Position numbers and translations under genes: made by a program
The notes under the pieces: generated by a model
The model's database searches: none
What the model saw: only the letters and a program-made list of their open reading frames with translations
What the model was told of the DNA's origin: nothing
IMG/VR virus record: IMGVR_UViG_3300050020_000079
Location: 1-21,097 of that record
DNA from: a virus
Reading direction: 5' to 3' (one strand)
DNA: 21,097 bases
Shown here: in pieces, positions 5,858-21,097 of the stretch
Layout: each line of letters starts with the position of its first letter
How positions within the stretch are numbered: the stretch's first letter is position 1

Positions 5858-6430
5858 ATGACCGAAGAACAGATCGTCGCTAAGTATACGAAGGCCACGG
5901 GGAAGTTTAACCGTGGCGGTGAACCATATTCCATTCGCCGGTTCATTTATAGCTACGTCTGTTCTGGATGTGGAGAAGTCTCTTTCACTACGACGACCCG
6001 GATTTCTGGGTACTGCACGATGAGTTGCTATATGCTCCGGTACTGGGACAAGAATACGACGCGAGAAAACAAGATCGACAAAGACGGATACGTCAAGGTT
6101 TTCTCTCGCGGACATTCCGTCTCCCGGGAAGCCGGTCACTGCCGAGTCTCTGAACATGTTCTTGTGATGGAAAAAGAACTTGGGCGTTCTCTGAGAAAAG
6201 GGGAGAACGTTCACCATAAGAACGGAATCAAAAACGACAACAGAATTGAGAATCTTGAACTCTGGACTTCTCACCAGCCCGCAGGACAGAGAGTTTCTGA
6301 TTTGATTTCATTCGTCGTCGATAATTACCAGACCGAACTGAAGGCCAAACTAGAAGTGCGCGAGTTGGTTCAAAGCGTAATCCGTCGCGTTGAAACGCAC
6401 GGAACATTGTCAGTCTTACAGGAGAAATAA
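5858..6430 (+). CDS. Free-standing HNH homing-type endonuclease
   Basis: A 190-residue protein. Residues 35-57 hold a zinc finger (C35-x2-C38 and C53-x3-C57). The HNH core follows: VSEHVLVMEKELGR (about 97-110), then H119-H120, N122, N128 and N132 in VHHKNGIKNDNRIENLEL. Such enzymes nick or cut DNA with a divalent metal and spread by homing into alleles that lack them. It sits between the decoration gene and the major capsid gene, a typical free-standing homing site, and is more AT-rich than its neighbours. Its 3' end supplies the ribosome site of the capsid gene. No intron or intein boundary is visible. Confidence 0.9.
   Translation: MTEEQIVAKYTKATGKFNRGGEPYSIRRFIYSYVCSGCGEVSFTTTTRISGYCTMSCYMLRYWDKNTTRENKIDKDGYVKVFSRGHSVSREAGHCRVSEHVLVMEKELGRSLRKGENVHHKNGIKNDNRIENLELWTSHQPAGQRVSDLISFVVDNYQTELKAKLEVRELVQSVIRRVETHGTLSVLQEK
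6420..6424 (+). promoter_or_regulatory. RBS fixing the GTG start of the capsid gene
   Basis: AGGAG lies 7 nt before GTG 6432. An in-frame ATG at 6390 would add 14 residues encoded inside the HNH gene and has no good ribosome site, so GTG 6432 is preferred. Confidence 0.65.
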
Positions 6431-6431
6431 A

Positions 6432-7325
6432 GTGGCAATTGTCAACTCCAGTCAGTGGCCTTCAGTCGTTCAAAGGGACTTATCCCTACTTTTTGTAGAT
6501 CAGTACAGAGGCTGGCCGAGTATGTTAAGTTTGATGTTCGACTTCAAGCCTGCCGAACAGGGAACCGAGTACGACCTGGAGGTCGGTGACTTCCCGGCCG
6601 TCCAGCTCTTCAACGGGTCGGTTCCTTACGTCCCCGTCACGGAAGGCTACAAGAAGTCGATCCAGGAGACGCAGTACGCGGTCGGATTCATCGCGACCCG
6701 CCAGCTTCTCCGCAACGACCTGTACGGCGCGGTGCGATCCACCGTCCGCAACATGGCCGATTCGTTCCGCCAGCTCCGCGAGCAGCAGGGAGCGTTCTGC
6801 TTCGTGAACGGGTTCAACGGCGCGTTCACGACCGGTGATGGCCTGTCGCTCTTCAACGCGGCCCACACCAACGCGAACGGTGGTCCGAACTTCTCGAACA
6901 CGAACTCGCTGGCGTTCAGCGCGGCGAACCTCCAGAACAACCGCCTGCTCATGAAGGCGTTCCCGTCCAACGCGGGCAACATCATCATGAACGTGGCGGA
7001 TACCATCATCGTCCCGATGCAGCTTGAGGATGTTGGCTACGAAATCCTGGAGAGCATGGGTAAGGTTGACACCTCGCTCAACAACCGCAACTACTCCGAG
7101 GGCCGCTACAAGCTCATCGTCTGGGACAACTTCCTCACGTCTCCGACCAACTGGTTCCTGGTCAACTCCGAGCGGATGCGCCGCGAGTTGATTTTCCGCG
7201 AGTGGGAGAAAGTCTCTTTCATGCGGTCGGGAGAGTTCGACACGCTCGCCACGAAGTGGGCCGGATATACTTCTTTCGGCATCAGCACAGTTGAACCGCG
7301 ATGGGGCTTCGGGTCTAGCAACTAG
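6432..7325 (+). CDS. Major capsid protein (HK97-fold type)
   Basis: A 297-residue protein starting at GTG with AGGAG upstream. The sequence LFNAAHTNANGGPNFSNTN near residues 140-158 and the region around TIIVPMQLEDVGYEILES are like HK97-fold coats of the Mu gpT type, where LFNAAHxN is characteristic. HK97-fold coats form the icosahedral shell; the scaffold upstream fits that. It has one Cys and no signal peptide. It lies in the transcription unit driven by the promoter at 4897, beyond the decoration and HNH genes. No N-terminal delta domain is seen, consistent with a separate scaffold. Family assignment is by motif and context. Confidence 0.88.
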   Translation: MAIVNSSQWPSVVQRDLSLLFVDQYRGWPSMLSLMFDFKPAEQGTEYDLEVGDFPAVQLFNGSVPYVPVTEGYKKSIQETQYAVGFIATRQLLRNDLYGAVRSTVRNMADSFRQLREQQGAFCFVNGFNGAFTTGDGLSLFNAAHTNANGGPNFSNTNSLAFSAANLQNNRLLMKAFPSNAGNIIMNVADTIIVPMQLEDVGYEILESMGKVDTSLNNRNYSEGRYKLIVWDNFLTSPTNWFLVNSERMRRELIFREWEKVSFMRSGEFDTLATKWAGYTSFGISTVEPRWGFGSSN

Positions 7326-7925: not shown

Positions 7926-8984
7926 TTGAACAGATTTCTGACCGCCATCGTCTCCCTTGCTCTACTCTGCGGTGTCGCGGATGCTCGCCTGCTGGGTGTC
8001 AACCCGACTGGAGTGACCGGCGACATCCTTTGCAATGGTGGTAGCCCGACTGGGACCAACAACGAGATTTGCCACGACTACCTGGGCGACTGGGGGCCGA
8101 CTTCCGTGGGTGGCTCTCAGACTCTTGGGACCTCCGCGTTCCCTTGGGATGGTATTTATCTTGGCTCCAACCCGTCAACTCCTCTTCCCGCCTTCCAGAT
8201 GAATGGTTCAGTCAGCACTACGACGATTGCGACGACCAACCTTGGATTCTCTGAATTCATCGCGGTCAGCCCCTCGGGCGCGTTCCTCGCTCTCTGCATC
8301 AGCACGGGCGGCGTGGGCGGTTCCGTACTAGTTTCCGATGGCGTCACTGCCTGCTACGGCGCAACGTTCGCGGCGGCGGCTGGCGCGGGGTCCATTCTTG
8401 GCGTGGATACGTTCTACACTCTGTTAAGCACCGGGGGAGCCCCATCATCGTTGACGCTCACGAACTCCACGGTGTCAATCAACGCCGGTTCGTCTGGCGC
8501 GTCTTACACGAACACGGCCAGCACGGTGACTGGACTTGCCGTGACGCCGATCTCAGCCGCTGACGTCGCGGCGTTCAACGCGGCCACCACCACAATCGCG
8601 GCCATGGCTTGCGCGACCACGCAGACCGGGACGTTGGCTGGGGCCACGCTCCAGCCCGGTGTTGCCTGCTTCACCGCTGCGGCCACCCTTACCGGAGTCC
8701 TCACTCTCAACGGTGGACCCAGCAGCCTCTTCGTTATCAAGTCTGGAACGGGCGGTTCGGGAGCATTGACTGGGACCAACCTCACGGTCGTCTTGACTGG
8801 CGGTGCCAAGCCCGGGAACGTCTACTGGTACACTCCCAGTGCCGCAACGTTCACTGATACGACGATCAGCGGGAACATCCTGTCGGGAACTAGCGTGACT
8901 TTGACCCGTGTGACTCTGATCGGTCGCGCGTTCGCGGCGGGAACGGTCACTGGGACGAACGTCATCGCCAGCGCACCGCAATAA
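7926..8984 (+). CDS. Secreted protein with DUF3494 ice-binding-like domain
   Basis: 352 residues from TTG 7926. Residues 1-20 are a Sec signal peptide (MNRFLTAIVSLALLCGVADA, likely cut after ADA). Residues about 21-160 are a Gly/Ser/Thr-rich beta region with phage-structural flavour (SAFPWDGIYLG). Residues about 162-352 match the DUF3494 ice-binding fold: FYTLLS start, a helix AADVAAFNAATTTIAAM, then GTLAGATLQPGVACF, LTGVLTLNGGPSSLFVIK, GNVYWYTPSAATF, GNILSGTSVTLT and GRAFAAGTVT. In this family a long helix packs along a three-sided beta-solenoid that can bind ice or act in adhesion. The mature chain has six Cys; C229 and C248 could clamp helix to solenoid. It follows the head genes, so it may be a virion or host-surface protein. 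The domain is confident; ice binding is not shown. Confidence 0.85.
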   Translation: MNRFLTAIVSLALLCGVADARLLGVNPTGVTGDILCNGGSPTGTNNEICHDYLGDWGPTSVGGSQTLGTSAFPWDGIYLGSNPSTPLPAFQMNGSVSTTTIATTNLGFSEFIAVSPSGAFLALCISTGGVGGSVLVSDGVTACYGATFAAAAGAGSILGVDTFYTLLSTGGAPSSLTLTNSTVSINAGSSGASYTNTASTVTGLAVTPISAADVAAFNAATTTIAAMACATTQTGTLAGATLQPGVACFTAAATLTGVLTLNGGPSSLFVIKSGTGGSGALTGTNLTVVLTGGAKPGNVYWYTPSAATFTDTTISGNILSGTSVTLTRVTLIGRAFAAGTVTGTNVIASAPQ

Positions 8985-8995
8985 CCGGAGCCAAC

Positions 8996-9439
8996 ATGAA
9001 CGCCCGACGACTTGGCCTACTACTCGGGCTGGCTGTTTTGGCTGCCTGGGGATCGCGCGAAGCCTATGCCGCGGACAAGCACGACTACTTCATCCAGCCA
9101 AACACGCTGGCGGTTGCTCTGACGGGTGGAGATACACCTAACACGTACTCTGTCTCCTGCTCATCCAACACGCCCACAGCCGGAGCGACTCAACTGCGTC
9201 CTGCCGTCACTGACCGCTCGCGTCGCAAGGTCTGTTTCGCCAACCGAGGCAACGTGACCGTCGTCATCGGTAGCTCAACGGTCGCCGCGTCCGACTACTA
9301 CGTTCTAGGCGAGGCGACAAGCACCGCAGTCTCGTCCCAGTACTGCACGAACGCCTCGGGGGCGTACTACTGCGCGCCCAACCTCGGCAACGGCGCTCAG
9401 ACCGTGGTGATAATCGAAGAGATGCAGTCGGTTCCCTAG
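8996..9439 (+). CDS. Small secreted beta-rich protein
   Basis: 147 residues. Residues 1-25 form a signal peptide with a two-Arg start, Leu/Ala core and AYA|AD cleavage site. The mature part is beta-rich with four Cys (in VSCSS, KVCFAN, QYCTN and YYCAP). The segment RRKVCFANRGNVTVVIG resembles small beta-sandwich domains of phage surface proteins (a basic residue, then hydrophobic-x-N-x-G and V-x-IG). CGGAG lies 5 nt before the ATG. It follows the DUF3494 protein and may be a partner of it or a virion surface component. Not assigned to a family. Confidence 0.78.
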   Translation: MNARRLGLLLGLAVLAAWGSREAYAADKHDYFIQPNTLAVALTGGDTPNTYSVSCSSNTPTAGATQLRPAVTDRSRRKVCFANRGNVTVVIGSSTVAASDYYVLGEATSTAVSSQYCTNASGAYYCAPNLGNGAQTVVIIEEMQSVP

Positions 9440-9446
9440 GAGTCTC

Positions 9447-9887
9447 ATGAAATTCCTCGCTCTCGTCGTGTTGCTGGCGTCCCAGGTCCTGGCCGCTCCG
9501 TACTTCCGGCCTCTTGACTACCAACACCCCAAGCCTGTATTCGGCGCGTTAATTGCCCCTGAGGCGTTGGGACAGAGCGAGGCGTCGTCGTTGCTTCCCC
9601 TCATCACCCACAGCCCCAAGGATGGTTGCTTGCTCCCCACCATCGTCTGCGAGGACTGGACGCCGCTGGCGGTTGGTGCGTCGATGAACGCGGGGAAAAT
9701 CACTCTCATCGTCGCCCCCCTCGCCAATGTCGTCCCGTGGATTCAGTCTGCGGTTCAGAATGCGACTGGGAAAACGTATGTAAAAAACCCTTCTGTGACG
9801 ATTTCCGCTGGGCCTGCGCTTGAGTACAAGCAAACCACCAACAAGGGCTACCTGAGAATCTTCACAGGGTTGGCGCTGAACTTCTAA
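9447..9887 (+). CDS. Small secreted protein with OMP-like C-terminus
   Basis: 146 residues. Signal peptide 1-16 (MKFLALVVLLASQVLA, cut before APYF). The mature chain has two Cys eight residues apart (DGCLLPTIVCEDW). The last 30 residues read as a beta hairpin, SVTISAGPALEYKQ, a short turn, then YLRIFTGLALNF, ending in Phe with alternating hydrophobics. That resembles the C-terminal beta-signal of outer-membrane proteins, though 130 mature residues allow only a small barrel. It could equally be a soluble periplasmic protein. AGGAG (9438-9442) overlaps the previous stop. Confidence 0.78.
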   Translation: MKFLALVVLLASQVLAAPYFRPLDYQHPKPVFGALIAPEALGQSEASSLLPLITHSPKDGCLLPTIVCEDWTPLAVGASMNAGKITLIVAPLANVVPWIQSAVQNATGKTYVKNPSVTISAGPALEYKQTTNKGYLRIFTGLALNF

Positions 9888-9888
9888 A

Positions 9889-10044
9889 ATGGACGTTTCA
9901 ACTCCACAGGCCCTTGCCGATCTAGTCAAAATGGTGGGATTCCCCATCATGTGCGCGGCCTATTTCATGTGGAAGGATAAGACGTTCACACAGAAGATTT
10001 CCGACGACCTCGCAGCCATCAGAGAACACACAAAAGTGATATGA
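9889..10044 (+). CDS. Small YvrJ-like membrane protein
   Basis: 51 residues (MDVSTPQALADLVKMVGFPI...). One membrane segment around GFPIMCAAYFMW (residues 17-28) is followed by a charged helix ending in DDLAAIREHTKVI. The layout (short lead, G-F-P-I, one membrane helix, then amphipathic helix) matches the small YvrJ family found in Gram-positive genomes and phages, whose role is unclear and sometimes suggested to be holin-like. The ATG lies one base after the preceding stop, and the TGA overlaps the next gene (ATGA). Family call is moderate; a holin role is only a possibility. Confidence 0.58.
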   Translation: MDVSTPQALADLVKMVGFPIMCAAYFMWKDKTFTQKISDDLAAIREHTKVI

Positions 10045-10163
10045 ACCCGACAAACGTTGGAATTGTTATCCTACTCGCCCTGGTGTTGGTGTCCGAGGTC
10101 CAGATGTGGAAGCGAAAGGCTCAGATGTCCAAGAAGTCAGTCAAAGAATCTCGCTGGGTATGA
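10041..10163 (+). CDS. 40-residue single-pass membrane protein
   Basis: MNPTNVGIVILLALVLVSEV followed by a basic tail (WKRKAQMSKKSVKESRWV). One hydrophobic segment (about residues 6-18) and a strongly positive C-terminus predict N-out, C-in single-pass topology. It overlaps the YvrJ-like gene by four bases and ends five bases before the adaptor start, so it fits the operon, but the ribosome site is weak. Function unknown; small lysis or membrane-remodelling proteins look like this. Confidence 0.48.
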   Translation: MNPTNVGIVILLALVLVSEVQMWKRKAQMSKKSVKESRWV

Positions 10164-10167
10164 AATT

Positions 10168-10884
10168 ATGCGGAGAGCGCGGAGTTTAGTCGCAACCATC
10201 GTACTCGCGCTATTAGCGTCGGCACCCTGTCGCGCGGCGGAAAATCTTACCCAGCTAATCGCAGACGTTCGCAATCTCACTCTGGACGGTGCTTCCGCTA
10301 CCCGCCAGCACTTCACGGACTCCCAGATCACCGTATTCCTCAACCAAGGTCAGCGCGAGGCTATGGCTGGCAGCAGATGCCTCCAGCAGACGGCCGAGTT
10401 TACTCTTGTGCCGGGAACGACGTACTACCCTCTTCCTACGAACTACAACGTCATCGAGCGAGTTACGATTGGACTGAAATCCATCCCCCAGATGACGCCT
10501 GCGGCCCTCGACTCCCAATCTCTCGGATGGCAGGCGGCGACCGGATACCCCAACCGCTACTTCATCAACTTCTCGTCGCGCGGTTTGATTGGATTCGCGC
10601 CTTGGCCTGCGGCCTCCACTGACACCGACATCATCAAAGTCGATTTCGATGTGTCGGCCAACGACTTGGTGGCACCGACGGACGTTCCTTTCAACGGGAT
10701 CAACGAGTTGCAAGACTACCAACACATCCTTGCCTACTGGGCCGCGTCCACCATCGAGCAGATCGACCAGCAACCGGGCCGGGCGGGCTACTATCTGACA
10801 CTATTCCAGGCAGTTGGCGGTCAATTCTCCAAGAAATGCCGGGACCTGACCAACTACAGGCCCAACGCGAGTGGCGCACCGTGA
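10168..10884 (+). CDS. Head-tail adaptor (gp4-like) with a signal peptide
   Basis: 238 residues from ATG 10168. Residues 1-23 are a signal peptide (MRRARSL, hydrophobic core, CRA|AEN). The mature part reads like podovirus adaptor/tail-tubular-A proteins: LTQLIADVRNLTLD, HFTDSQITVFLNQGQREA, LVPGTTYYPLPTNYNVIERV, and a helical C-terminus that includes YQHILAYWAASTIEQID. This class forms a ring beneath the portal. A signal peptide on such a protein is unexpected, since the portal is in the cytoplasm. Two Cys in the mature chain. An upstream in-frame start (10057) would cross two small genes and bury the signal. Its stop overlaps the next start (GTGA). Confidence 0.82.
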   Translation: MRRARSLVATIVLALLASAPCRAAENLTQLIADVRNLTLDGASATRQHFTDSQITVFLNQGQREAMAGSRCLQQTAEFTLVPGTTYYPLPTNYNVIERVTIGLKSIPQMTPAALDSQSLGWQAATGYPNRYFINFSSRGLIGFAPWPAASTDTDIIKVDFDVSANDLVAPTDVPFNGINELQDYQHILAYWAASTIEQIDQQPGRAGYYLTLFQAVGGQFSKKCRDLTNYRPNASGAP

Positions 10885-13763
10885 AATGGCTCCTACTCCT
10901 AGCCCTCGCCTCGCCAGTTCTCGCGCAAACTCCTAGCGCGACGGAGCAAACCATCGACGTTGGTGGTGGGCAGTCGGGTGGCATCCAGATGTGCGGGTTG
11001 ATTACTCGATTCCCCGGCGACATCATCTCGCCCAACTGCTTCCAGCAGTCAACCAACATCCTGTCGGACAGAACCGGGACGATGACTCGGCGTCTCGGCT
11101 ACGCGCAACAGAACCAGACTGCCTGCGAGGGTTCCGCGCCCATTCGCGGCATGTGGCCGTTTTTCCTGCAGAACGGCGTCCAGTACCTCGTGATGTTCTC
11201 GTCAACCTCGATGTTCTATTCCCCTGGCGATGGTTCATGTACGCCAATTCCCGGCCTCCATAGCGTTTTATCGCCCACCGCCACCATGGAATGCGTCCAG
11301 GCGCTCGGGCAACTCTGGTGCGCGGATGGCGTCGATCCAGTGTTCGCCACCACCGTTACGTCCACCCAGGCCGTCACGCAAGCCCCGATTGGCTCTCATA
11401 TTGGCACATTCCGCAACCGAATCCTGGTTTCTGGAGTCCCCGGGGTTGGGCCGAACGGAGCAGGGTCGGCTGTCTACCTGTCGGGAGAACTTAACGGGCT
11501 CGATTACACAATCCCTGCGGTTCAATTAACCACCTCCCCCGCTATCATCCAGGTGAACGGGACGAATGATGGTCTTGCGGTGAACTGCCTGATGGGGGAG
11601 TTCCAGAACCAGTTTCTAATCGGTCGGCCGTACGATCTATGGGGATTGTCGGGCTACGACCTGTCCGACTTCGCACTACGCAAGATTTCCAGCCAGATCG
11701 GATGCCTGGAGCCCAGAAGCGTCCAAGAAGTCACCAACGTCCTCTACTGGCTGTCGTATCGCGGGGTGGAAGGGCTCTCTGGCACCCAGATCAACCGCGT
11801 GTCCTACCCAATCGACTCGCAAATCCTCCCCATCATCACGACTGCGAAAAATACGCTGACGCAGACGTTGACGACTCAGGCAGATTGGCAGTCTGGGAAT
11901 TTGACCGCCTCTGGTCCCGGCGCACCAATTTCGGCCACCATCTCTCCTGGTGACTTGGTGCCATCGTCGGCAACTTTCGTGGACAACACAACATCCACTT
12001 ATGTAAATGGAACGCTAGTCAACGTTTCGACTCGGGGATCATCTTCGTTGGCCTTGTCGATATCCACGGGCTCTGTTTTCGATCCAAACTTAACGGGAAC
12101 TGGTTGGATTTCTTCATCTACTCCCCCATCAGGGTTGCCTTGGGTTCTGAACGCCTCTAATGGATCGGTTATTCCGTTATCGGGCGGAGCTACAGTACAG
12201 TGTCCAAATGGTGAAGCAATATGCGCGTATACACAGATTGTTGGTGGTTCTAATGCCACCTGTTCCGCGAACACCAGCAATGTGTTTGCCTGTATTTATG
12301 ATGGAGCGACATACGCGGGTCTTGGAAATTTCAATACTTCTTCGTCTCTAAATTCGTCAATGAACATAGCATCAGTCGAAAAGTCGTCATCAATAATTAT
12401 CGCGTTCTCTAAGTTTACGCCCACATGCGAATACCCGTTCACGCTTACCCGTGCCTTCCAAAAGAATACAACGCCTATCGGTTTCAACCTTGTTGTGGAT
12501 TCGACTAGAACATGTAGCGGCAGCGGCCCTCAGTGCGGAGGTGGTAGCAACACGTGCCAATTTATAAGCGTTTCAAATGTAAGAGTTTCTTCCTATTCTC
12601 CGACAGGGACATATACGTCGTCTGCCTTCGACACCACCTTCTCAACCCCGATCATCGGACCCCCATTCATTGTCGCTTATACCAGCTCCTCAGTCGCGGC
12701 CCTCACTTATACGAATGAGAATTCAAGCGATGGGATATCCTGGAGTGCGCCGGTCGCCCTCAGCACTGCAGGTCCATCTCTTTCTGGAAAACGCTACTGG
12801 CGGTATCTTGAGAATTTCACGACATCGAATGGGACGACAACAGCAATCTCCAATGGGTTGGTCACTGAGGCCGAGACAACGGGTTACTACATCACTCCCT
12901 GTATCCTGGTCGCCTCGCCAACATCATTCGGGAACCTCATCGTCAATGGTGTGACTAATGGAGGATCGTTCACCTTCTGGGTGGCGACTGGAGCGACCTG
13001 CGGGTTGGCGACCGCAACCAATGCGCCGTGGGTTCTCCAGACTGCTAATGCTGGAATAACGGTATCGACGGGCTCCACCTACATCGCGGCGAGGATTTTA
13101 TTCAACGTCGATGTGGCGACAGAGGTGCCGACGCTCAACGACATCACCTTCACCTGGGTCAGTGGAGCGTTTAGGCCAGCGACGACCTCTGCCCGATGGG
13201 ATGACAGGTATTTGCTTTTCTTCACCACCAGCACATCGGTCACTGCGGCCAACGACCACATCTTTATCTACGACCAGAACCAGAAGTGGCAGCTGTGGGA
13301 CGATGAGCCTGCGGCGTCAGCCACGCTATATCTCAACAGGCTGTATACGGGCGACTCTGGGCCTACCGGTCTTTTCTACCAGCAAGACATCGGCCAGTCC
13401 GACAACGGCAACCCCTTCACCATGACGTTCCAAACCGCCGACTTCGATGGTGGCGATCCGAACATGCGGAAGCAGTTCACGCGGGCGTACATGATGCTCG
13501 GAGCGCCAAGTGGGAGCAACGGGACGGCGACGTTGAACTGCACCTACACTATTGATGGTTCGGCAAACACCTATCCGCTGGGAAACGTGGTGTTAAATGA
13601 ATCCCCCGAGAACACTGGGTATTTTGTAGCCAAACTTCCATTCCCAGCATCGCAACCGTCAACTGGACATTGGCTTTCTATGACCTGCGGGGCATCCGGG
13701 CTTGTGGGCCCCATTGCGATACACCGGATACGCCTGGTATACTCTAGTCTCAGCTGGGACTGA
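10881..13763 (+). CDS. Tail-tubular-B-like protein with a signal peptide
   Basis: 960 residues from GTG 10881, which overlaps the adaptor stop (GTGA). Signal peptide 1-15 (MKWLLLLALASPVLA|QT). Residues about 20-340 match podovirus tail-tube/stabilisation proteins: QQSTNILSDRTGTMTRRLGY, QALGQLWCADGVDPVF, HIGTFRNRILVSGVPG, LRKISSQIGCLEPRSV and NVLYWLSYRGVEGLSG. The C-terminal third returns to the family pattern (ARWDDRYLLFF, HIFIYDQNQKWQLWDD). Such proteins form the tail nozzle below the adaptor. Residues about 370-580 are a Cys- and Ser-rich insert coded by more AT-rich DNA. Twenty Cys in the mature chain, far above what a cytoplasmic tail protein needs, suggests disulfides. The start at 10836 is rejected because it would put 15 polar residues ahead of the signal. 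Confidence 0.86.
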   Translation: MKWLLLLALASPVLAQTPSATEQTIDVGGGQSGGIQMCGLITRFPGDIISPNCFQQSTNILSDRTGTMTRRLGYAQQNQTACEGSAPIRGMWPFFLQNGVQYLVMFSSTSMFYSPGDGSCTPIPGLHSVLSPTATMECVQALGQLWCADGVDPVFATTVTSTQAVTQAPIGSHIGTFRNRILVSGVPGVGPNGAGSAVYLSGELNGLDYTIPAVQLTTSPAIIQVNGTNDGLAVNCLMGEFQNQFLIGRPYDLWGLSGYDLSDFALRKISSQIGCLEPRSVQEVTNVLYWLSYRGVEGLSGTQINRVSYPIDSQILPIITTAKNTLTQTLTTQADWQSGNLTASGPGAPISATISPGDLVPSSATFVDNTTSTYVNGTLVNVSTRGSSSLALSISTGSVFDPNLTGTGWISSSTPPSGLPWVLNASNGSVIPLSGGATVQCPNGEAICAYTQIVGGSNATCSANTSNVFACIYDGATYAGLGNFNTSSSLNSSMNIASVEKSSSIIIAFSKFTPTCEYPFTLTRAFQKNTTPIGFNLVVDSTRTCSGSGPQCGGGSNTCQFISVSNVRVSSYSPTGTYTSSAFDTTFSTPIIGPPFIVAYTSSSVAALTYTNENSSDGISWSAPVALSTAGPSLSGKRYWRYLENFTTSNGTTTAISNGLVTEAETTGYYITPCILVASPTSFGNLIVNGVTNGGSFTFWVATGATCGLATATNAPWVLQTANAGITVSTGSTYIAARILFNVDVATEVPTLNDITFTWVSGAFRPATTSARWDDRYLLFFTTSTSVTAANDHIFIYDQNQKWQLWDDEPAASATLYLNRLYTGDSGPTGLFYQQDIGQSDNGNPFTMTFQTADFDGGDPNMRKQFTRAYMMLGAPSGSNGTATLNCTYTIDGSANTYPLGNVVLNESPENTGYFVAKLPFPASQPSTGHWLSMTCGASGLVGPIAIHRIRLVYSSLSWD

Positions 13764-13764
13764 A

Positions 13765-14337
13765 ATGCCATATAAAGATAAGGAAAAAGAACGGGCGTGT
13801 AAGAGGGAATCCGCTAGAAGAATGCGGAAACTCCATCCTGGGCGGTATCGCCGTTCCGTAGAAGAAAATAAAATTTACTACCTAAAAAACAAAGATCGGA
13901 TAAGAGAGCGTGGACGTTCTCCAGAAATCCGTAAACGAAATACGGAAAATCATCGAAAGTATGTTTTAAAAAACAAGGAGAATGTGTACGCCAAGAGAAG
14001 AGAGTGGGAGTTAAAAAATAGAGAGCGATGCAAAGAAGTGAATGCATTGTGGAATAAAAATAATCGCTTGAAACTGAAGTCGTATTGGCGCTTAAATGGA
14101 TCGAAACGAAGGGCTTTAAAATTAAGTGGTATGCTACCCGGTTACGAAAAAGAAATCGCTTTGATTTACAGAAAGTCATCTATAATGACCAATATAACTG
14201 GCGTCCAGTACTCCGTCGATCACATATGGCCTCTTCAAGGGAAGCAGGCGTCTGGTCTTCACGTTCCATGGAATCTACAGGTCATGCGTTTGTCTGAGAA
14301 CTGCCAGAAGCACAACTCCGAACCAGTGGGAGTCTAA
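13765..14337 (+). CDS. Second HNH endonuclease, AT-rich
   Basis: 190 residues, starting one base after the tail gene stop. Residues 1-125 are a Lys/Arg/Asn-rich helical arm with repeating Y-x-K/N-x patterns (KIYYLKNKDRIRERG, RKYVLKNKENVY, WELKNRERCKE), probably DNA binding. The HNH core has V-D152-H153-IWPLQGKQ, then GLHVPWNLQVM and a final N-C-x-KHN. This is a common phage HNH subtype (DHxxPLxG...GLHVPWNLQ) and differs from the HNH at 5858. The gene is clearly AT-rich compared with both neighbours, a sign of recent acquisition. It separates the tail-tube gene from the ejection-protein genes. Confidence 0.87.
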   Translation: MPYKDKEKERACKRESARRMRKLHPGRYRRSVEENKIYYLKNKDRIRERGRSPEIRKRNTENHRKYVLKNKENVYAKRREWELKNRERCKEVNALWNKNNRLKLKSYWRLNGSKRRALKLSGMLPGYEKEIALIYRKSSIMTNITGVQYSVDHIWPLQGKQASGLHVPWNLQVMRLSENCQKHNSEPVGV

Positions 14338-14338
14338 A

Positions 14339-15235
14339 ATGCCAATCACGAGTCAGCCCGCGCAGTCAAACGCCCCCGCCGCTGGGGCAACTCCTGTGAA
14401 TCCTCTCGCCGGAATGTCGCCCGTCACGACGCAGAATGTGAATCCGGCGTCACTCCAGCAGACCTCCACTGGCGCGATCAATATGCTGGCGAACAACGCG
14501 CCTGCGTCGTTGACCTCGATGCTGATGCCTCTCTACCAACAGCTTTTCGGGTCGCAGACTGGGGCGCTGGGCCAAACCACCGCGCTTCAAGGCCAGCAGG
14601 GGATGGCGCAGGCGCAATCCAACTCTCAACAGCGCGGGCTCACGGGCTCCAGCATCGAGGCCGGGGCGATGCAGGGGGCTCTCTCGTCCTCTCAGCGCGA
14701 CTACACCCAGGGCTACGCTTCCCTGCTCGGGAACTACGTCAATTCCTACGCGAATGCCGCTGGTTCCGACATCTCGAACAAAAACACCTACTACACCAAC
14801 CTCGCCCAGGCTCTCGGCCAGGCGTCGGCCTCGAATATCCAACAAGAGCAGTTCCAGCAACAGCTACAGGCGGGATTGAGTGTTGCATCGGAGAACGCCG
14901 ACGCTCAAAAGACCGCTGGCCTATATTCTGGAATCGGAAGTGCCGTGGGAGGAATCGCAGGAGGCATCGGCGCGGCCGGTGGTTTCTCTGCGATGTTCTC
15001 TGACATCCGTCTCAAGAAGAACGTTCGACTGATTGGGAAGAAATATGGATTCAACGTTTACACCTACGAGTACGACCGCGAGGAGTGCCCGGAACTCAAG
15101 GATAGACTCCCTGTTGGTACATTCGTCGGGTTCATGGCCCACCATGTCGCACAAAAATACCCCGAGGCGGTCAGAGTGATGAAAGGCTACCTGATGCTCG
15201 ACTACAATAAACTCGCGGAGGTGGCGCTTGCCTGA
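14339..15235 (+). CDS. Probable internal virion protein with S74 chaperone
   Basis: 298 residues, no signal peptide. Residues 1-195 are Gln/Ala/Ser-rich and helical; residues about 197-218 are a glycine-zipper hydrophobic stretch (SAVGGIAGGIGAAGGF); residues 221-298 are an S74-type intramolecular chaperone beginning with the SDIRLKK motif (S221, D222 the self-cleavage pair), then FVGFMAHHV and LDYNKL. Such chaperones trimerise a protein and cut themselves off. Here it is fused to what looks like a DNA-ejection protein, not a fibre. One Cys only. It leads a block of three overlapping internal-protein genes. Confidence 0.84.
   Translation: MPITSQPAQSNAPAAGATPVNPLAGMSPVTTQNVNPASLQQTSTGAINMLANNAPASLTSMLMPLYQQLFGSQTGALGQTTALQGQQGMAQAQSNSQQRGLTGSSIEAGAMQGALSSSQRDYTQGYASLLGNYVNSYANAAGSDISNKNTYYTNLAQALGQASASNIQQEQFQQQLQAGLSVASENADAQKTAGLYSGIGSAVGGIAGGIGAAGGFSAMFSDIRLKKNVRLIGKKYGFNVYTYEYDREECPELKDRLPVGTFVGFMAHHVAQKYPEAVRVMKGYLMLDYNKLAEVALA
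15217..15222 (+). promoter_or_regulatory. RBS fixing a TTG start at 15228
   Basis: GGAGGT lies 5 nt before TTG 15228, inside the end of the preceding gene. This supports a TTG start that overlaps the upstream coding region by eight bases. Confidence 0.62.
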
Positions 15236-16454
15236 GTTCATTCCCCCGCCGCAACTTCCTACCGGGATGGCCGAGAGACTGATAGAGTTGAAATCTCAGT
15301 CTGGAAACCCGTGGGCCGCGCTAGCCCAGAACCTTGGGAACACCGTTGGGAATACGGCCCAAAACATCGGCCAGTCGATTGGGCAGAGAAGGGAGAGTAT
15401 GGCTACCCCAGCCGAGATGCAGGCGATGAATCTACGACAACCCGCGCAGGGGCCGACCCGGCCTGGGCAGGCACCACTTACCCAGCAGGCCACTCAACCG
15501 ATGAGGTTGTCGCTGGCTGAAAAATTAACCCAGCAACAGACCGCCAACACCGAGAAGGAGAATCTGCTTAGGATGCAGGGGAAAGGGTCGGGAGTCCCTG
15601 CCAACCACTTTGTTGTCACGCAGAAGGACCTCGATGGCAACCCTGATTGGGTCAAGAAGGGGATCGCACTGAACGATACGTTGCCTGACGCCATGAGGAC
15701 GAATTCGACGAAGCCTCCTGCCGCCAATAAAGCAGTCGCTGACCAGGGTAACATGAAACTGGTTACAGACTATGCTTCCAAGAACGGCGTGTCCCTCGAT
15801 GCCCTTCGCCCTGGTGGAATGGGTGGATGGAACTCGAACAATCTTGCCATGGTCGCACAGATGATTAAGGACCATCCAGACTACGACGCCGCTAACTTGA
15901 AAAAGGAGTTCGCCGGACAACTTGCCGCTTCGACTCGTGGGGCTGGTACGACTGCGGCAACGGGCGCAGCCATGAAGGTGAACCTGGAGTCTGCACACAG
16001 CGGCTTCACCGCCGTCATGGACATGGCGAAGGATGTCGCGGCCAAGATGGACAAGGGGCAGATCGGGATATTCAACTCTGCCATCCAGCGTGGGGAAACC
16101 GAGTTCAACGACGAGAACTCCATCGCCATGAACACCTACCTCGACATGGCGGCGGGAAACTACGCCAGGATCACGAAGGGCGGGATGGCCTCAATCTCCG
16201 ACGAGGACAAAGAGGACGCGAAGAAGATTCTGTCGAAAAAGCTCAACGCTGGTGGCCTCGAAGCAGTCCAGAAGGCGATGGATGTTGAGTACAAGGGACG
16301 AATCGCTGGGTTGCCTGGTGGGAAGAAAGAGGCGAAGGCGGAGAAGTCCCCATCCGGCAAACCCGCCGCTGAACATGATGGGAAATCGACCGAACACACC
16401 TACCCCGATGGCACCAAGGCTAAATGGGATGGGAAGCAGTGGGTGAAGGTATAA
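15228..16454 (+). CDS. Probable internal/ejection virion protein
   Basis: 408 residues from TTG, no signal peptide, no Cys. The N-terminal 100 residues are Pro/Gln/Asn-rich. Residues about 245-365 are helical and resemble a domain I know from phage internal proteins: TTAATGAAMKVNLESAHSG, then GIFNSAIQRGETEF, MNTYLDMAAGNYARI and ISDEDKEDAKKIL. The C-terminus is a basic linker plus TYPDGTKAKWDGKQWVKV, a small W-rich motif. It overlaps the S74 gene upstream and its TAA overlaps the next ATG. Ejected internal proteins of podoviruses are encoded in such blocks. Role by similarity of pattern and position. Confidence 0.78.
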   Translation: MPEFIPPPQLPTGMAERLIELKSQSGNPWAALAQNLGNTVGNTAQNIGQSIGQRRESMATPAEMQAMNLRQPAQGPTRPGQAPLTQQATQPMRLSLAEKLTQQQTANTEKENLLRMQGKGSGVPANHFVVTQKDLDGNPDWVKKGIALNDTLPDAMRTNSTKPPAANKAVADQGNMKLVTDYASKNGVSLDALRPGGMGGWNSNNLAMVAQMIKDHPDYDAANLKKEFAGQLAASTRGAGTTAATGAAMKVNLESAHSGFTAVMDMAKDVAAKMDKGQIGIFNSAIQRGETEFNDENSIAMNTYLDMAAGNYARITKGGMASISDEDKEDAKKILSKKLNAGGLEAVQKAMDVEYKGRIAGLPGGKKEAKAEKSPSGKPAAEHDGKSTEHTYPDGTKAKWDGKQWVKV

Positions 16455-17899
16455 TGGACATCCCCCCTCCTCCTGACGATCCAAAGCAACTTTCTGTCGC
16501 GGGGTCTATACCGCCGCCTCCAGATCAATCGCAGTTGATGTCTCAAGATGCTCTGGCCCATCACGACCCCGGCCTCGCCAGCATGGTTCGTCATGCCAAC
16601 ATGGTTCTCCAGCCTGTCGCAGACCTGGGGGCAAAGGCCGCTGGGTATCTCGATAAGAAGGCTGGGCAGACCGCCGAAATCCTAGGTCACGCAGGCGTCC
16701 CTGCACCCATCTCCGCCGCTGTTGGCATGCCTGCCGCCATGGCCGCTGAGGCTATGCCGAAGGACAAGGCTGGTGTCGCGCTCGCCGCGATCCCCACCGA
16801 AGAGGCCGCGCAGGCCCTGGGGAAAGGTCTGGAGCCTCTGGCGCAAGGAACCAAGGACGTTTTCTCGCAACTCCTCGGCACCTGGACTGGACGATCCCCC
16901 GAGGCCGTCAAGGAACTGATCGGGAGTCGTGGTAGCGAGGTCTGGAAGATGGTGTCTCAGAAGTTGTCGGATTTTGAGCAGGCGACACTGACCACCCACA
17001 TCGAGAATAGCCTCTCCGAGGTTGGCAAGAAGTTTCATGCGGTCCAGGACGCTCTGGCTGGGTTCCCCGGCACCCGCGCGGCTGGTCAGGCGGCGCAGAT
17101 CAACCTGAAACCCGCCCTTGTTTCCACCATGCGCGACATGGAGCGCAACGGGCATATTTTGCCAGAAGCTCTGACCGGATACGCCTCCAGGCTGAAAGAG
17201 AGCGGTATCAAGCAGGGAACTCCCGACTACAACACAGTCGTCGAATTCCTCGGCCAGGTCAAGAAGGCGTCTGCTGAGGGACGAGACTTCGGTGAAGTCC
17301 TCAACATCAAGCGCAACCTTGACGACGCCATCGACTACGGGATTCCCGGTCAAGGTGGGCTCCAGAAGATCGGGAACAAGGCGAACTCGGCCCTCCAGTT
17401 CCTACGCGACCGCCTCAACCTCCAACTCCGCGCTGCTCTGCCATCAGACAAGAGGGCAGAGTGGGACGCTGTGAACTCGTCCTATTCCAAGGCTCGGAAA
17501 GCCTACGACGAGATCAGGAAAGAGGTCATCAAGAGCGACCCGCAGGCTACGATGGCGAGGGTGTTGAGAGAGCTTAAAAGCGGGCGGTCGGAAAAGAGCA
17601 TCGGAGGCCGGGCTTCACAGATTGGCGAGGAAGCCCAACGCGCTCTCCAGGAAGTCCATGACCGCGTGGTGGCGTCCCAATTCCGAGACTTCATCTCTGG
17701 CCGCGCCAGCGGTCTTGAGGCTGTTGTCACCACCGCGCCTCCCAGGCTGGTCGGTAAAGCCGCCGTCACTGGAGGTCAACTCGCTCGCGCCGGTCAGAAC
17801 ATGGCCGCGCTCGTCCTCGCCCATCCCCAGGCTACCCGCTCTGCCATCGAGTCGATCCTGAACAACGCTGAGAAAGAAAAGGCTCGGAAGACCCAATGA
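16454..17899 (+). CDS. Probable internal/ejection virion protein
   Basis: 481 residues, no signal peptide, no Cys. ATG 16454 overlaps the previous stop (TAATG); an earlier in-frame start at 16424 lies inside that gene and is rejected. Residues 1-25 are Pro/Asp-rich (MDIPPPPDDPKQ); residues about 35-120 are Ala-rich helices with amphipathic or weakly hydrophobic stretches (APISAAVGMPAAMAAEAM); the rest is long helix (EVLNIKRNLDDAIDYGI, WDAVNSSYSKARKAYDEIRKEV). Composition and placement fit a large DNA-ejection protein that interacts with membranes. No enzymatic domain is seen, so cell-wall cutting during entry is not supported by this gene. Confidence 0.77.
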   Translation: MDIPPPPDDPKQLSVAGSIPPPPDQSQLMSQDALAHHDPGLASMVRHANMVLQPVADLGAKAAGYLDKKAGQTAEILGHAGVPAPISAAVGMPAAMAAEAMPKDKAGVALAAIPTEEAAQALGKGLEPLAQGTKDVFSQLLGTWTGRSPEAVKELIGSRGSEVWKMVSQKLSDFEQATLTTHIENSLSEVGKKFHAVQDALAGFPGTRAAGQAAQINLKPALVSTMRDMERNGHILPEALTGYASRLKESGIKQGTPDYNTVVEFLGQVKKASAEGRDFGEVLNIKRNLDDAIDYGIPGQGGLQKIGNKANSALQFLRDRLNLQLRAALPSDKRAEWDAVNSSYSKARKAYDEIRKEVIKSDPQATMARVLRELKSGRSEKSIGGRASQIGEEAQRALQEVHDRVVASQFRDFISGRASGLEAVVTTAPPRLVGKAAVTGGQLARAGQNMAALVLAHPQATRSAIESILNNAEKEKARKTQ

Positions 17900-17982
17900 C
17901 CTGCCCCCGACCTATCGACCGCGCGGAGGTTGTTGGGGATGAGCCCGAAGACGCCTACATCATCGACGACGACCAAGACTGA
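17896..17982 (+). CDS. Tiny acidic ORF
   Basis: 28 codons (MTCPRPIDRAEVVGDEPEDA...). ATG overlaps the preceding stop (ATGA), and it ends one base before the next tiny ORF. The C-terminus is very acidic (DAYIIDDDQD). The tight overlaps favour a real coupled gene, but the ribosome site is weak and it is too short to judge. Confidence 0.35.
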   Translation: MTCPRPIDRAEVVGDEPEDAYIIDDDQD

Positions 17983-17983
17983 T

Positions 17984-18082
17984 ATGACGCCCGATAAAAT
18001 CTACTTTCTCTGCGGGATGGCGATAGGGATGGCGTTGGTTGGTTTCCCGTTGTTGGTTTTTCTGCGCGTGGGATACAAGTGA
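17984..18082 (+). CDS. 32-residue single-pass membrane protein
   Basis: MTPDKIYFLCGMAIGMALVG followed by FPLLVFLRVGYK. One hydrophobic span (about residues 7-27) ends in a basic tail. It overlaps the next gene's GTG by four bases (GTGA). It is similar in plan to the 40-residue protein at 10041 but not in sequence. Function unknown. Confidence 0.45.
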   Translation: MTPDKIYFLCGMAIGMALVGFPLLVFLRVGYK

Positions 18083-19383
18083 ACGTCCTTTACCTGTCTA
18101 GGCACGGGGAAGGAGCAGACATTGCATTCAGAATGTCGCTCGATGGCGTGAAGGTTCGCCTTTGGATCGAGAACCCAGCGATGAAGGATGTCGCGGATGG
18201 CCTCGTGCCTAAAGTCACAGACTGGCGACCGTCCGTCAAGTGGGCCGACCTCATCGTGATGGATTACAACTCCGACGAGTTGGCGAAGATTTGGGATCAG
18301 GTTCACAAGCAGGTGCCAACATTCGGGGGATCGTCATTCGGGAATCGCCTGGAATCCGACCGCGCGTTCTCCCGCGCCATCATGAAGCGGTGCGGGATTC
18401 CCAACCTCAAGAACAAATCGTTCAAGACCCTCAAGGAAGCTCACGCGCATCTCAAGTCCAACCCCGGCCCCTGGGTGGTCAAGAGCGAAGGGAAGCTTGT
18501 CGAAAAACACCACATGGTCATTGGTGAGAAAGAAGATAATTCCGATGCCATCCTCCAGGTTGAACGACTCATCGACCAGGGGTTGGTGGTCGAGTCCGTC
18601 GAGGTCGAGGAAAAGAAGAAGGGCGTGGAGGTGGGGCTATCCCGGTTCTTCAACGGGTCGGACTGGGTTGGTCCCATCAATGTCAATTTCGAGCATAAGC
18701 GGTCGCACGACCGGGAGACGGGCTATTTGACTGGGGAGTGCGGCACCCTCATGAAGTATTCCCAGGACCCGGACCTCCCTCTATTCAAAGAGACGCTAGG
18801 CAAGATGGCCCCGATTCTACGCGCCGCTGATTACAAAGGCCAGATCGATCTTAACATGGTGATCGGGCGGGACGAGCATGGCGAGAGATTTGTCGCTCCG
18901 CTTGAGTTCACGCCTCGACTCGGCTATCCCTCCTGGGCGTTGGAAGATGAGATTCATGTGACCCCCTGGGAAAAGATCATGATGGGTTGCGCGACCGGGC
19001 AGCGCGTCGATGTCCAAACGCACTACGACTGGAGCGTTGGCGTCCTTCTCTGCGCGTTCGGCTTCCCCTTCGACGATAAGGTGGCGAAGATATCGAAGGG
19101 ATTGGTTGTCGAGGGCGTGGACGAACACAATGTTGGCGGGCACATCCATCCGATGAATCTCTCGCTCAACAAGAAAGGCCAGTTCGTGGTATCATCCGGC
19201 CAGGGCTACGTCCTCGTCGCCACTGGACGCGGCCCGTCGATCTGCGATGCCAAGGAAGCGGCGTATGGGGCGATGGATGGTATCAAGCTCCCGAACAGTT
19301 TCAAGCGGTTCGACATCTCCGACAAGATTCAGCCCCATGAACTCGACGACTTGGGTATCCTTCCACTTGAGGAGTGCGCGTGA
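18079..19383 (+). CDS. PurD-like ATP-grasp ligase
   Basis: 434 residues from GTG, close to PurD length (about 430). PurD (GARS) joins phosphoribosylamine and glycine with ATP in purine synthesis. Matching blocks: FGGSSFGNRLESDRAFSRAI with CGIP (82-108; PurD has a similar SK-x-F-x-K...GIP block), PWVVKSEGK (131-139), HKRSHDRETGYLTGECG (206-222, in place of GPNTGGMGA), PLEFTPRLGYPS (274-285, in place of EFNxRFGDPE) and GYVLVATGRG with AAYGAMDGI (376-402, the C-terminal domain). Odd points: the N-terminal GGREH-type motif is absent (SRHGEGADIAF instead), and the metal-binding Asn is Thr278. The substrate may therefore differ. Four-base overlaps at both ends tie it to the structural operon. No signal peptide. 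Confidence 0.85.
   Translation: MNVLYLSRHGEGADIAFRMSLDGVKVRLWIENPAMKDVADGLVPKVTDWRPSVKWADLIVMDYNSDELAKIWDQVHKQVPTFGGSSFGNRLESDRAFSRAIMKRCGIPNLKNKSFKTLKEAHAHLKSNPGPWVVKSEGKLVEKHHMVIGEKEDNSDAILQVERLIDQGLVVESVEVEEKKKGVEVGLSRFFNGSDWVGPINVNFEHKRSHDRETGYLTGECGTLMKYSQDPDLPLFKETLGKMAPILRAADYKGQIDLNMVIGRDEHGERFVAPLEFTPRLGYPSWALEDEIHVTPWEKIMMGCATGQRVDVQTHYDWSVGVLLCAFGFPFDDKVAKISKGLVVEGVDEHNVGGHIHPMNLSLNKKGQFVVSSGQGYVLVATGRGPSICDAKEAAYGAMDGIKLPNSFKRFDISDKIQPHELDDLGILPLEECA
19369..19374 (+). promoter_or_regulatory. RBS fixing a GTG start at 19380
   Basis: GAGGAG lies 5 nt before GTG 19380. Another in-frame GTG at 19374 overlaps this site and so is unlikely to be used. Confidence 0.6.
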
Positions 19384-20912
19384 GATGGCTCCTATCCCTC
19401 GCTCTGCTCGCGTCGGTCGCCCACGCTGATCCTGCGTTCTACCTCAGAGGTGCAAACACCAACCAGGCCATCGGTGGTCTGAATGGCAACTTCCTAGACA
19501 GTGAAACCCAGCGCAACGACCGCCTGACGCAAACCATCACCCCGAAGAACTGCCCTGTTGGCTTTGCTCTAACTGGCGCGTTCTTCCACAACGGCTACAC
19601 CTTCGGCGGGCTCTGCTCGCAGGCTGGATCATCCTCTGGCGTGACTCAGATCATCGCTGGGACGGGAATCACTATATCGCCTGCTGGCGGGACTGGGGTA
19701 GTCACGATCAATTCGACTGGCGGGACTGATTTTGGCCCATCAACCGCGGCGCTGTCGATAAGACTCAACCAGGTCGCAGTGTCTACTACCGCGCTGTCCG
19801 CCTCCACTGTGTCGCTATCAGGCAGGCTCGATCAAGTAGCCACCGCCACAACCACTCTCAGCGCATCGACTGTAACCCTATACGGGCTGATCGTAAATGT
19901 GGGAGCATCGACACAAACCCTCGCCAACGCCGTAGCCCTGTCCACGACAAATCTGGTGGCAAATAGCACAGCCTACCTCCACGTCGATGGGTCGAATTCA
20001 ATGGTCGGGCAGTTGACGGAACAGTCGAGCGCGACATTCCAAGGCACTGTCAAACTCGCCACCATCGCTGGCCAATGCCTCCAGACCGACGGATCGGGGA
20101 ATGTGACCGGGACAGGTTCAGCTTGTGCCGCGTCCACTCTCGGCACCATCGGCTTCCTCTCGGACAACTTCCTGGCGCAAGCAAACGGAACGAATAAATC
20201 GTTCACCCTCACGACTACGCCTTCACTTAACAGCGAGCATGTCGTCTTGGATGGAACTGTTTTATCTGGGACCTCGGACTATACGCTATCTGGCGTAACA
20301 CTGACTCTAACGACGGCTCCGGTAACGGCATGTACGTCCGCCAAGCCAAACAACTGTACATCCGAGTTCTTCGTCAAGTACGCATCCGGTGCGGTGTTGG
20401 CATCGAATGCGGCGGTGTTGAACGCGACGCAGACGTTCACGGGCACCAATTCGTTCCTGGGCGCGGCGTCATTAACGGGTCCGGTGTATTTTACCGCCGA
20501 CAGCGCGGCGAACATGCTCAACAGCTACGGCCCTGGGGCCGTGTGGGCCACCTCTATTGACGGTGCCTCGGAGTCATCGGGGTGCGTCGTCGTCGTCACT
20601 TCACCCAACAACGTCGCCAGCACGATATCCACCTACACGTTTACGTCAACGACGACGGCGACGTTCAATTTCTTCTCCAACATGTCGGTCCCCGGAGTTC
20701 TCCTGCAAACATGCGCGTCGGGGGCGTCTTGCCTTGTTGCGCTTTCTGGCGGTCCTTTTAGGGTCCAAACGACGAACACGAGCGTGAATTATCTGGAAAC
20801 ATCAGCGACAAGGTGCCAAGTTCAGAACGAGACTGGTTTCGACGCGCTCACCTTGGGATACCCCATGACTAAAAACGTAGGCGCGTCTTTCATTTGGATG
20901 AGGCTGCGATGA
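19380..20912 (+). CDS. Secreted fibre-like protein
   Basis: 510 residues from GTG 19380, overlapping the ligase stop (GTGA). Signal peptide 1-16 (MRWLLSLALLASVAHA|DP). The mature chain is Ser/Thr/Ala-rich. Residues about 118-200 contain heptad-like repeats (LSIRLNQVAVSTTALSASTV, then LSGRLDQVATATTTLSASTV) typical of trimeric fibre stalks, followed by fibre-type text (GSNSMVGQL, TFQGTVKLATI, QTDGSGNVTGTG). The C-terminal half is beta-rich, possibly the receptor-binding head. Ten Cys in the mature chain. It most likely is a tail fibre or spike. An alternative is a host-type surface protein acquired by the phage. Confidence 0.8.
   Translation: MRWLLSLALLASVAHADPAFYLRGANTNQAIGGLNGNFLDSETQRNDRLTQTITPKNCPVGFALTGAFFHNGYTFGGLCSQAGSSSGVTQIIAGTGITISPAGGTGVVTINSTGGTDFGPSTAALSIRLNQVAVSTTALSASTVSLSGRLDQVATATTTLSASTVTLYGLIVNVGASTQTLANAVALSTTNLVANSTAYLHVDGSNSMVGQLTEQSSATFQGTVKLATIAGQCLQTDGSGNVTGTGSACAASTLGTIGFLSDNFLAQANGTNKSFTLTTTPSLNSEHVVLDGTVLSGTSDYTLSGVTLTLTTAPVTACTSAKPNNCTSEFFVKYASGAVLASNAAVLNATQTFTGTNSFLGAASLTGPVYFTADSAANMLNSYGPGAVWATSIDGASESSGCVVVVTSPNNVASTISTYTFTSTTTATFNFFSNMSVPGVLLQTCASGASCLVALSGGPFRVQTTNTSVNYLETSATRCQVQNETGFDALTLGYPMTKNVGASFIWMRLR
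19738..19980 (+). repeat. Degenerate stalk repeats in fibre gene
   Basis: Protein-level repeats of about 22-23 residues with the pattern L-S-x-R-L-x-Q-V-A...T-T-x-L-S-A-S-T-V, two clear copies plus a third weaker copy beginning LYGLIVNVGAS. The DNA copies have diverged, so the repeat is maintained as protein, as in coiled-coil or beta-stalk fibres. Confidence 0.55.
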
Positions 20913-21097
20913 AATACCTGTTTCTACTCCTACTGGCCTCGTCGGCCCATGCGTACCAGAACATCGAGCCGCAGGACCTAAGTTTTAGCACTTACAACGT
21001 CATGGCCCTCTCAATCGCCACGACGACTCCGCCGACTACCGCCATGACGGTCTACGGGATCATCGCGTCGTCCACGACAAGCCCGACCGTAGTCTGT
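20909..21097 (+). CDS. Secreted protein, partial (runs off window)
   Basis: The first 63 codons of a gene whose end lies outside the window. ATG overlaps the fibre stop (ATGA). Signal peptide 1-15 (MKYLFLLLLASSAHA|YQ). The mature part begins YQNIEPQDLSFSTYNVMALS and then Thr/Ser-rich sequence (ATTTPPTTAMTVYG). The AHA cleavage site and LLAS core are nearly the same as in the fibre gene just upstream. Probably another fibre or tail surface protein. Confidence 0.78.
   Translation, partial: MKYLFLLLLASSAHAYQNIEPQDLSFSTYNVMALSIATTTPPTTAMTVYGIIASSTTSPTVVC

Follow-up and report, generated by a model that had tools for sequence, protein, structure and literature searches.

Predicted signal peptides on the neck and tail proteins of a clade of short-tailed phages point to virion assembly in two compartments

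Introduction

By the prevailing view, tailed phages are assembled in the cytoplasm, where addition of the tail seals the packed head. Sec-exported virion proteins are known in the filamentous phages, whose coat proteins carry signal peptides and are inserted into the inner membrane ahead of assembly. Those phages, however, have no tailed virion and no separate filled head in the cytoplasm, whereas the DNA analysed here, a linear IMG/VR virus fragment of 21,097 bases (IMGVR_UViG_3300050020_000079; its full length is called the window), encodes a portal, a scaffold-like protein and a coat protein of tailed-phage type. In the window, seven genes begin with predicted Sec-type signal peptides (leaders), among them the genes for the adaptor, or head-to-tail connector, and the tail nozzle.

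The Escherichia phage SU10 (Kuravirus; adaptor gp11, nozzle gp17; PMC9509320) shares with the window the portal and adaptor families PF23899 and PF24175 as well as the gene order portal-coat-adaptor-nozzle. None of the 18 SU10 virion-region proteins carries a signal peptide, and its adaptor starts at the domain, whereas the window adaptor is preceded by a leader. The coat families also differ (PF17236 in SU10, PF25209 in the window), and the SU10-type major coat protein that marks Kuravirus is thus missing from the window. In the HMO-2011-like podoviruses and the Manatee Spring phages, the propeller region of the nozzle aligns with that of the present clade, and in HMO-2011 and CRP-9 the adaptor gene lies directly before the nozzle gene, as in the window, but the adaptors and nozzles of these groups have neither the leader nor the cysteine sets of the clade. 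The Pelagibacter phage HTVC023P has two adjacent genes by its structural block, gp45 and gp46 (L034 12475-14550), with signal-peptide-like starts, whereas its adaptor-like genes (e.g. gp54) obtain negative scores, unlike the clade adaptors. T4 Spackle (gp61.3) has a signal peptide that is cleaved and acts in the periplasm, where it inhibits the tail lysozyme; unlike the clade proteins, it is not a structural part of neck or tail (PMC7650644). We found no precedent for a tailed phage with exported neck and tail in the open-access papers searched. The protein families of the parts are known, and what would be new is the assembly in two compartments that we propose.

Results

Leaders were scored with two home-made detectors, a weight matrix derived from 33 E. 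coli signal peptides and a rule combining a basic n-region, an uncharged h-region and an AxA-type site; all leaders reported here are accordingly predictions from sequence. A preliminary description of the window had placed Sec-type leaders at 7926, 8996, 9447, 10168, 10881, 19380 and 20909, and we recovered all seven, each with the features of a type I Sec signal peptide (basic n-region, hydrophobic h-region, small residues at -3/-1) as judged by matrix and rule. Their matrix scores lay between 5.5 and 11.4 and their hydrophobic cores reached 2.7 or more, whereas the remaining genes of the window did not exceed 4.2 and 2.4, respectively. The rule called 7 of the 25 window genes, the same seven as the matrix, versus 4 of 548 control start codons (P ~ 5e-10). 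The matrix called none of 37 genes in the virion regions of SU10 and T7 and 2 of 123 genes in six other phages. Most of the seven genes are preceded by a Shine-Dalgarno-like site; 7926 starts with TTG, 10881 and 19380 with GTG, and the other four with ATG. Neither detector called the portal, scaffold, decoration, coat or internal proteins, in line with the preliminary description; its leaders are real, but its "three internal proteins" had been named from position and gene order only.

The product of 10168 had been proposed to be the adaptor, and this identity is borne out by family and predicted fold. It matches PF24175 (SU10_adaptor) with E 1.1e-19 and 72.1 bits (gathering cut-off 27) from residue 26, the third residue past the predicted cut, while the match in SU10 gp11 starts at residue 12. 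Since the cut is predicted after residue 23, little more than the adaptor domain would remain once the leader is gone, and the mature protein would start AENLTQ. An AlphaFold2 model built with six relatives (predicted local distance difference test score, pLDDT, 71) retrieved through Foldseek the tail entries of KHP30, GP4, Pa223 and SU10 in the PDB (E 4e-7 to 2e-6, template modelling score ~0.5). In the alignment, the adaptors of HMO-2011, CRP-9, MaAM05, ctYwJ313 and AP1 have no leader, begin at the domain and lack the clade cysteine sets. A sequence search of the PDB gave no matches, and no significant one emerged when the profiles of adaptor and nozzle were compared directly to single proteins of SU10, T7, AP1 or QDWS535.

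For 10881, described earlier as tail-tubular-B-like, the window product itself had no Pfam match and no direct match among phages. Two nozzles of the clade, however, match annotated phage stabilization proteins (tblastn E 3e-15 and 7e-9 for the L010 nozzle), and propeller motifs are common to the clade nozzles, HMO-2011, CRP-9, MaAM05 and others in the alignment; the call thus stands as a nozzle/stabilization protein. Outgroup nozzles begin at the domain, with neither the leader nor the clade cysteine sets. Weak partial matches also gave the nozzle the PHROG labels "amidase" and "internal virion protein", which we did not adopt.

Portal, coat, nozzle and adaptor served as queries against IMG/VR and gave 15 lineages including the window, with guanine-plus-cytosine contents of 33-61%. 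A hydrophobic leader precedes the adaptor and nozzle domains in 15 of 15 lineages, which answers the search in related phages that the preliminary description had set as a test. Under the strict rule with a called start, about two thirds of the adaptors and four fifths of the nozzles were accepted in our tally; the failures are a minority and come from an unresolved start codon, a long n-region or the lack of a called basic residue. Leaders have diverged far more than mature parts (identity 28% versus 45% for the adaptor, 29% versus 53% for the nozzle), so that what has been kept is a property rather than a sequence.

In nine relatives, the rule called 15 of 17 tail genes versus 1 of 56 head or ejection genes, with a Fisher P of 1.4e-12 that is indicative only, as these relatives share ancestry; coat, decoration, portal, scaffold, small head genes and ejection-type proteins account for the leaderless side throughout. 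The relative G007 (45.5 kb, 60 genes) has five signal peptide calls, namely the adaptor, the nozzle and three adjoining genes of the tail module, and most calls in G011, G012, G014 and G015 fall in the same tail block. Therefore, the neck and tail proteins of this clade do not follow the ordinary pattern of a cytoplasmic tail without export signals.

These data bear on the idea that the leaders arose by chance or by misreading of start codons. Three of the seven starts are GTG or TTG and a few relatives have no clean start, but the control frequency given above and the recurrence of leaders in 15 lineages of such different base composition, tied to tail genes, speak against it. Conservation refutes this reading, to which we give practically no weight, and chance as the origin of the leaders is excluded.

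Each record holds one adaptor and one nozzle gene, and a second, cytoplasmic copy was thus rejected. A start codon near the cut is absent in 17 of the 19 leaders checked, so a second cytoplasmic form is not built in, and a short form made by internal restart is not supported. The exported proteins could also be surface decoys or superinfection-exclusion factors rather than virion parts, since phages do export non-virion proteins, T4 Spackle gp61.3 being an example (PMC7650644). Nevertheless, adaptor and nozzle are single-copy genes in their usual order, and we found no further candidate for a neck protein; we regard a non-virion role as very improbable.

Disulfide bonds produce paired gain and loss of cysteines, and bacteria usually form them outside the cytoplasm. 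At adaptor positions 71 and 224, both residues are cysteine in 7 of the 15 lineages and both are non-cysteine in the other 8, and at nozzle positions 287 and 300 the presence of cysteine agrees in 15 of 15; three further nozzle pairs are given in Table 1. On the coat-protein tree, the states of 287/300 change three times and those of 38/53 twice, with identical states at both members. The coat protein has a single recurrent cysteine column and no pair, and no perfect pair was seen among the portal columns, which comprise 7 rows only. Six of the exported window proteins are complete, and after the predicted cut they contain 6, 4, 2, 2, 20 and 10 cysteines, all even numbers; the 20 belong to the nozzle. 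We infer that the co-varying pairs are disulfides. The leader persists in lineages that miss a given pair, and export would therefore be more general than any single disulfide.

The division between leader-bearing tail proteins and leaderless head proteins, claimed in the preliminary description, is thus real, conserved in relatives and backed independently by the co-varying cysteines. Based on this conserved division and on the cysteine pairs, we consider the export of tail proteins from the cytoplasm to be well supported.

The same evidence bears on whether the leaders are removed. Uncleaved, they might tether the tail proteins to the inner membrane or serve as membrane-active segments at entry; they are hydrophobic, and podoviruses need a channel through the envelope when they enter (general knowledge; PMC9509320). 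Their uncharged runs, however, mostly measure 9-16 residues, which is little for a helix that crosses a membrane, and AxA-type sites come next, a few residues ahead of the conserved domain. Moreover, the feature occurs on seven different proteins, fibres among them, and the cysteine pairs imply that the bodies of adaptor and nozzle reside in an oxidising compartment. Retained leaders are, in our opinion, quite unlikely.

Table 1. Positions of the genes, predicted signal peptides and cysteine codons discussed for the window
Feature	Coordinates	Strand	Basis
Portal, no signal peptide	961..3132	+	PF23899 SU10_portal E 2.3e-9
Scaffold-like protein, no signal peptide	3541..4413	+	position, composition
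Decoration-like protein, no signal peptide	5008..5844	+	position
Major coat protein, no signal peptide	6423..7325	+	PF25209 (Phage_capsid_4) E 7.1e-15
Fibre-like exported protein, TTG start, predicted signal peptide residues 1-20, C-terminal Ice_binding	7926..8984	+	PF11999 E 5.6e-17; signal peptide score 6.9
Small exported tail-module protein, predicted signal peptide residues 1-25, 4 Cys	8996..9439	+	signal peptide score 5.5
Small exported protein, predicted signal peptide residues 1-16	9447..9887	+	signal peptide score 7.8; G003 homologue with leader
Small holin-like membrane protein within exported block	9889..10044	+	phrog_4898 holin E 3.5e-5
Adaptor (head-to-tail connector) preprotein, 238 aa	10168..10884	+	PF24175, AlphaFold2 model, leader scores
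Adaptor signal peptide MRRARSLVATIVLALLASAPCRA, residues 1-23 (predicted)	10168..10236	+	leader scoring
Adaptor Cys71 codon, putative disulfide partner of Cys224	10378..10380	+	lineage co-variation
Adaptor Cys224 codon	10837..10839	+	lineage co-variation
Tail nozzle/stabilization preprotein, 960 aa, GTG start	10881..13763	+	tblastn of clade nozzles, propeller-region alignment
Nozzle signal peptide MKWLLLLALASPVLA (predicted)	10881..10925	+	matrix, rule
Nozzle Cys38 (10992-10994) and Cys53 (11037-11039), putative pair	10992..11039	+	agreement 13/13
Nozzle Cys138 (11292-11294) and Cys147 (11319-11321), putative pair	11292..11321	+	agreement 15/15
Nozzle Cys236 (11586-11588) and Cys275 (11703-11705), putative pair	11586..11705	+	agreement 14/15
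Three ejection/internal-type proteins, no signal peptide	14339-15235, 15228-16454, 16424-17899	+	position, relatives
Fibre-like exported protein, GTG start, predicted signal peptide residues 1-16, 10 Cys	19380..20912	+	signal peptide score 11.4; G003 homologue with leader
Exported protein start, predicted signal peptide residues 1-15, cut by contig end	20909..21097	+	signal peptide score 9.1

Among the other exported proteins, the leader of 7926 stood, and the identity of its product was corrected to a fibre-like protein that carries an Ice_binding domain (PF11999). This domain (DUF3494) covers residues 176-342; the G003 homologue (L004:3688-4158) keeps the N-terminal part and has no Ice_binding domain. 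A relative of 8996 in L045/L048, whose best segment shows 51% identity, also has a leader.

Peptidase_S74 (endosialidase chaperone) domains are usual on fibres; the product of 14339-15235 has a weak C-terminal match to this family and yet no signal peptide. Two HNH-type endonuclease-like genes, 5858-6430 and 13768-14337, adjoin the coat and nozzle genes, and a Pfam match (HNH_3) was obtained only for the former. Within the virion module, 18079-19383 encodes a PurD/GARS-like ATP-grasp protein whose match to TIGR00877 (E 8.6e-28) falls short of the curated cut-off, and genes resembling it occupy the same place in G003 and G008.

A profile search of genome contigs for a host, using coat and portal alignments, found no relative, and tblastn against phages returned distant coat matches only. 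In G015, two small genes in reversed coordinates (8817-9152 and 26710-26994) have lipobox-like starts, LLSGC and LMAGC; they possibly encode outer-spanin-type lipoproteins, which would hint at a diderm host.

Discussion

We propose that virions of this clade of uncultured short-tailed phages are built in two compartments, which we consider the best overall explanation of the data and probably the right one. Portal, scaffold, coat, decoration and ejection proteins would be made and packed in the cytoplasm, while the adaptor, the nozzle and the fibres would be translocated by Sec across the inner membrane, lose their leaders and form disulfides on the other side. The leaders, their conserved place before the domain, their confinement to tail genes, the paired changes of cysteines and the single gene copies are seen in the sequences; from these we infer translocation, leader cleavage, disulfide formation, the site of tail assembly and the time of joining. 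Sec export and oxidation of the tail proteins appear highly likely. With adaptor, nozzle and fibres all outside, the tail would also be assembled outside the inner membrane, and its joining to the head would have to wait for that membrane to open. We favour, with some reserve, a tail that is exported in its entirety from adaptor to fibres, disulfide-bonded outside and joined to filled heads once the inner membrane opens.

Filled heads would then meet tails late, either at the moment when the inner membrane is opened by a holin, or else in the lysate. G007 encodes an M15 endolysin without a leader and has a holin-like gene nearby, so lysis looks holin-gated. Considering that holin-like genes occur both in G007 and in the exported block of the window, holin opening would be the simplest moment of joining. 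Export alone, however, is silent on when head and tail meet, and the tail could be exported for another end, for example to let heads dock at the inner membrane as virions are assembled, to be displayed on the surface, or to allow release of virions from cells that do not lyse. The lysis genes of G007 fit a late opening of the membrane instead, and we noticed neither a secretin nor any other gene for release, though no systematic search was made. We therefore regard such other ends as unlikely, and the late joining of tails to filled heads as somewhat the better bet.

Several observations weigh against our proposal. First, the packed head of known podoviruses such as T7 is sealed by the tail (PMC6702177), and heads without an adaptor would here need another closure. 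At a guess, an unexported head protein may hold the DNA in, the leaderless conserved small genes 4414 and 7367 being candidates. Second, L044, L048, L053, L054 and L060 each have at least one unclear start, some with no called start or no basic n-region, and the adaptor leader of G008 (L010 11680-11760) spans a run of 10 T, its start being out of frame in the assembly. For this run, an assembly error and a frameshift are both possible. Third, the nozzles of some relatives have odd numbers of cysteines, and the nozzle structure model (pLDDT 37) was too poor for use. Finally, 8 of the 15 lineages do not have the adaptor pair, so that export is not explained by disulfides in the adaptor.

If our proposal is correct, the head and the tail of a phage can be built in separate compartments, filled heads would need a different closure, and virion completion would be tied to the timing of lysis. 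Tails would depend on host Sec, on signal peptidase and possibly on oxidative folding, and the loss of these host functions could give phage resistance. For annotation, the finding calls for caution, as a signal peptide does not exclude a role in the virion.

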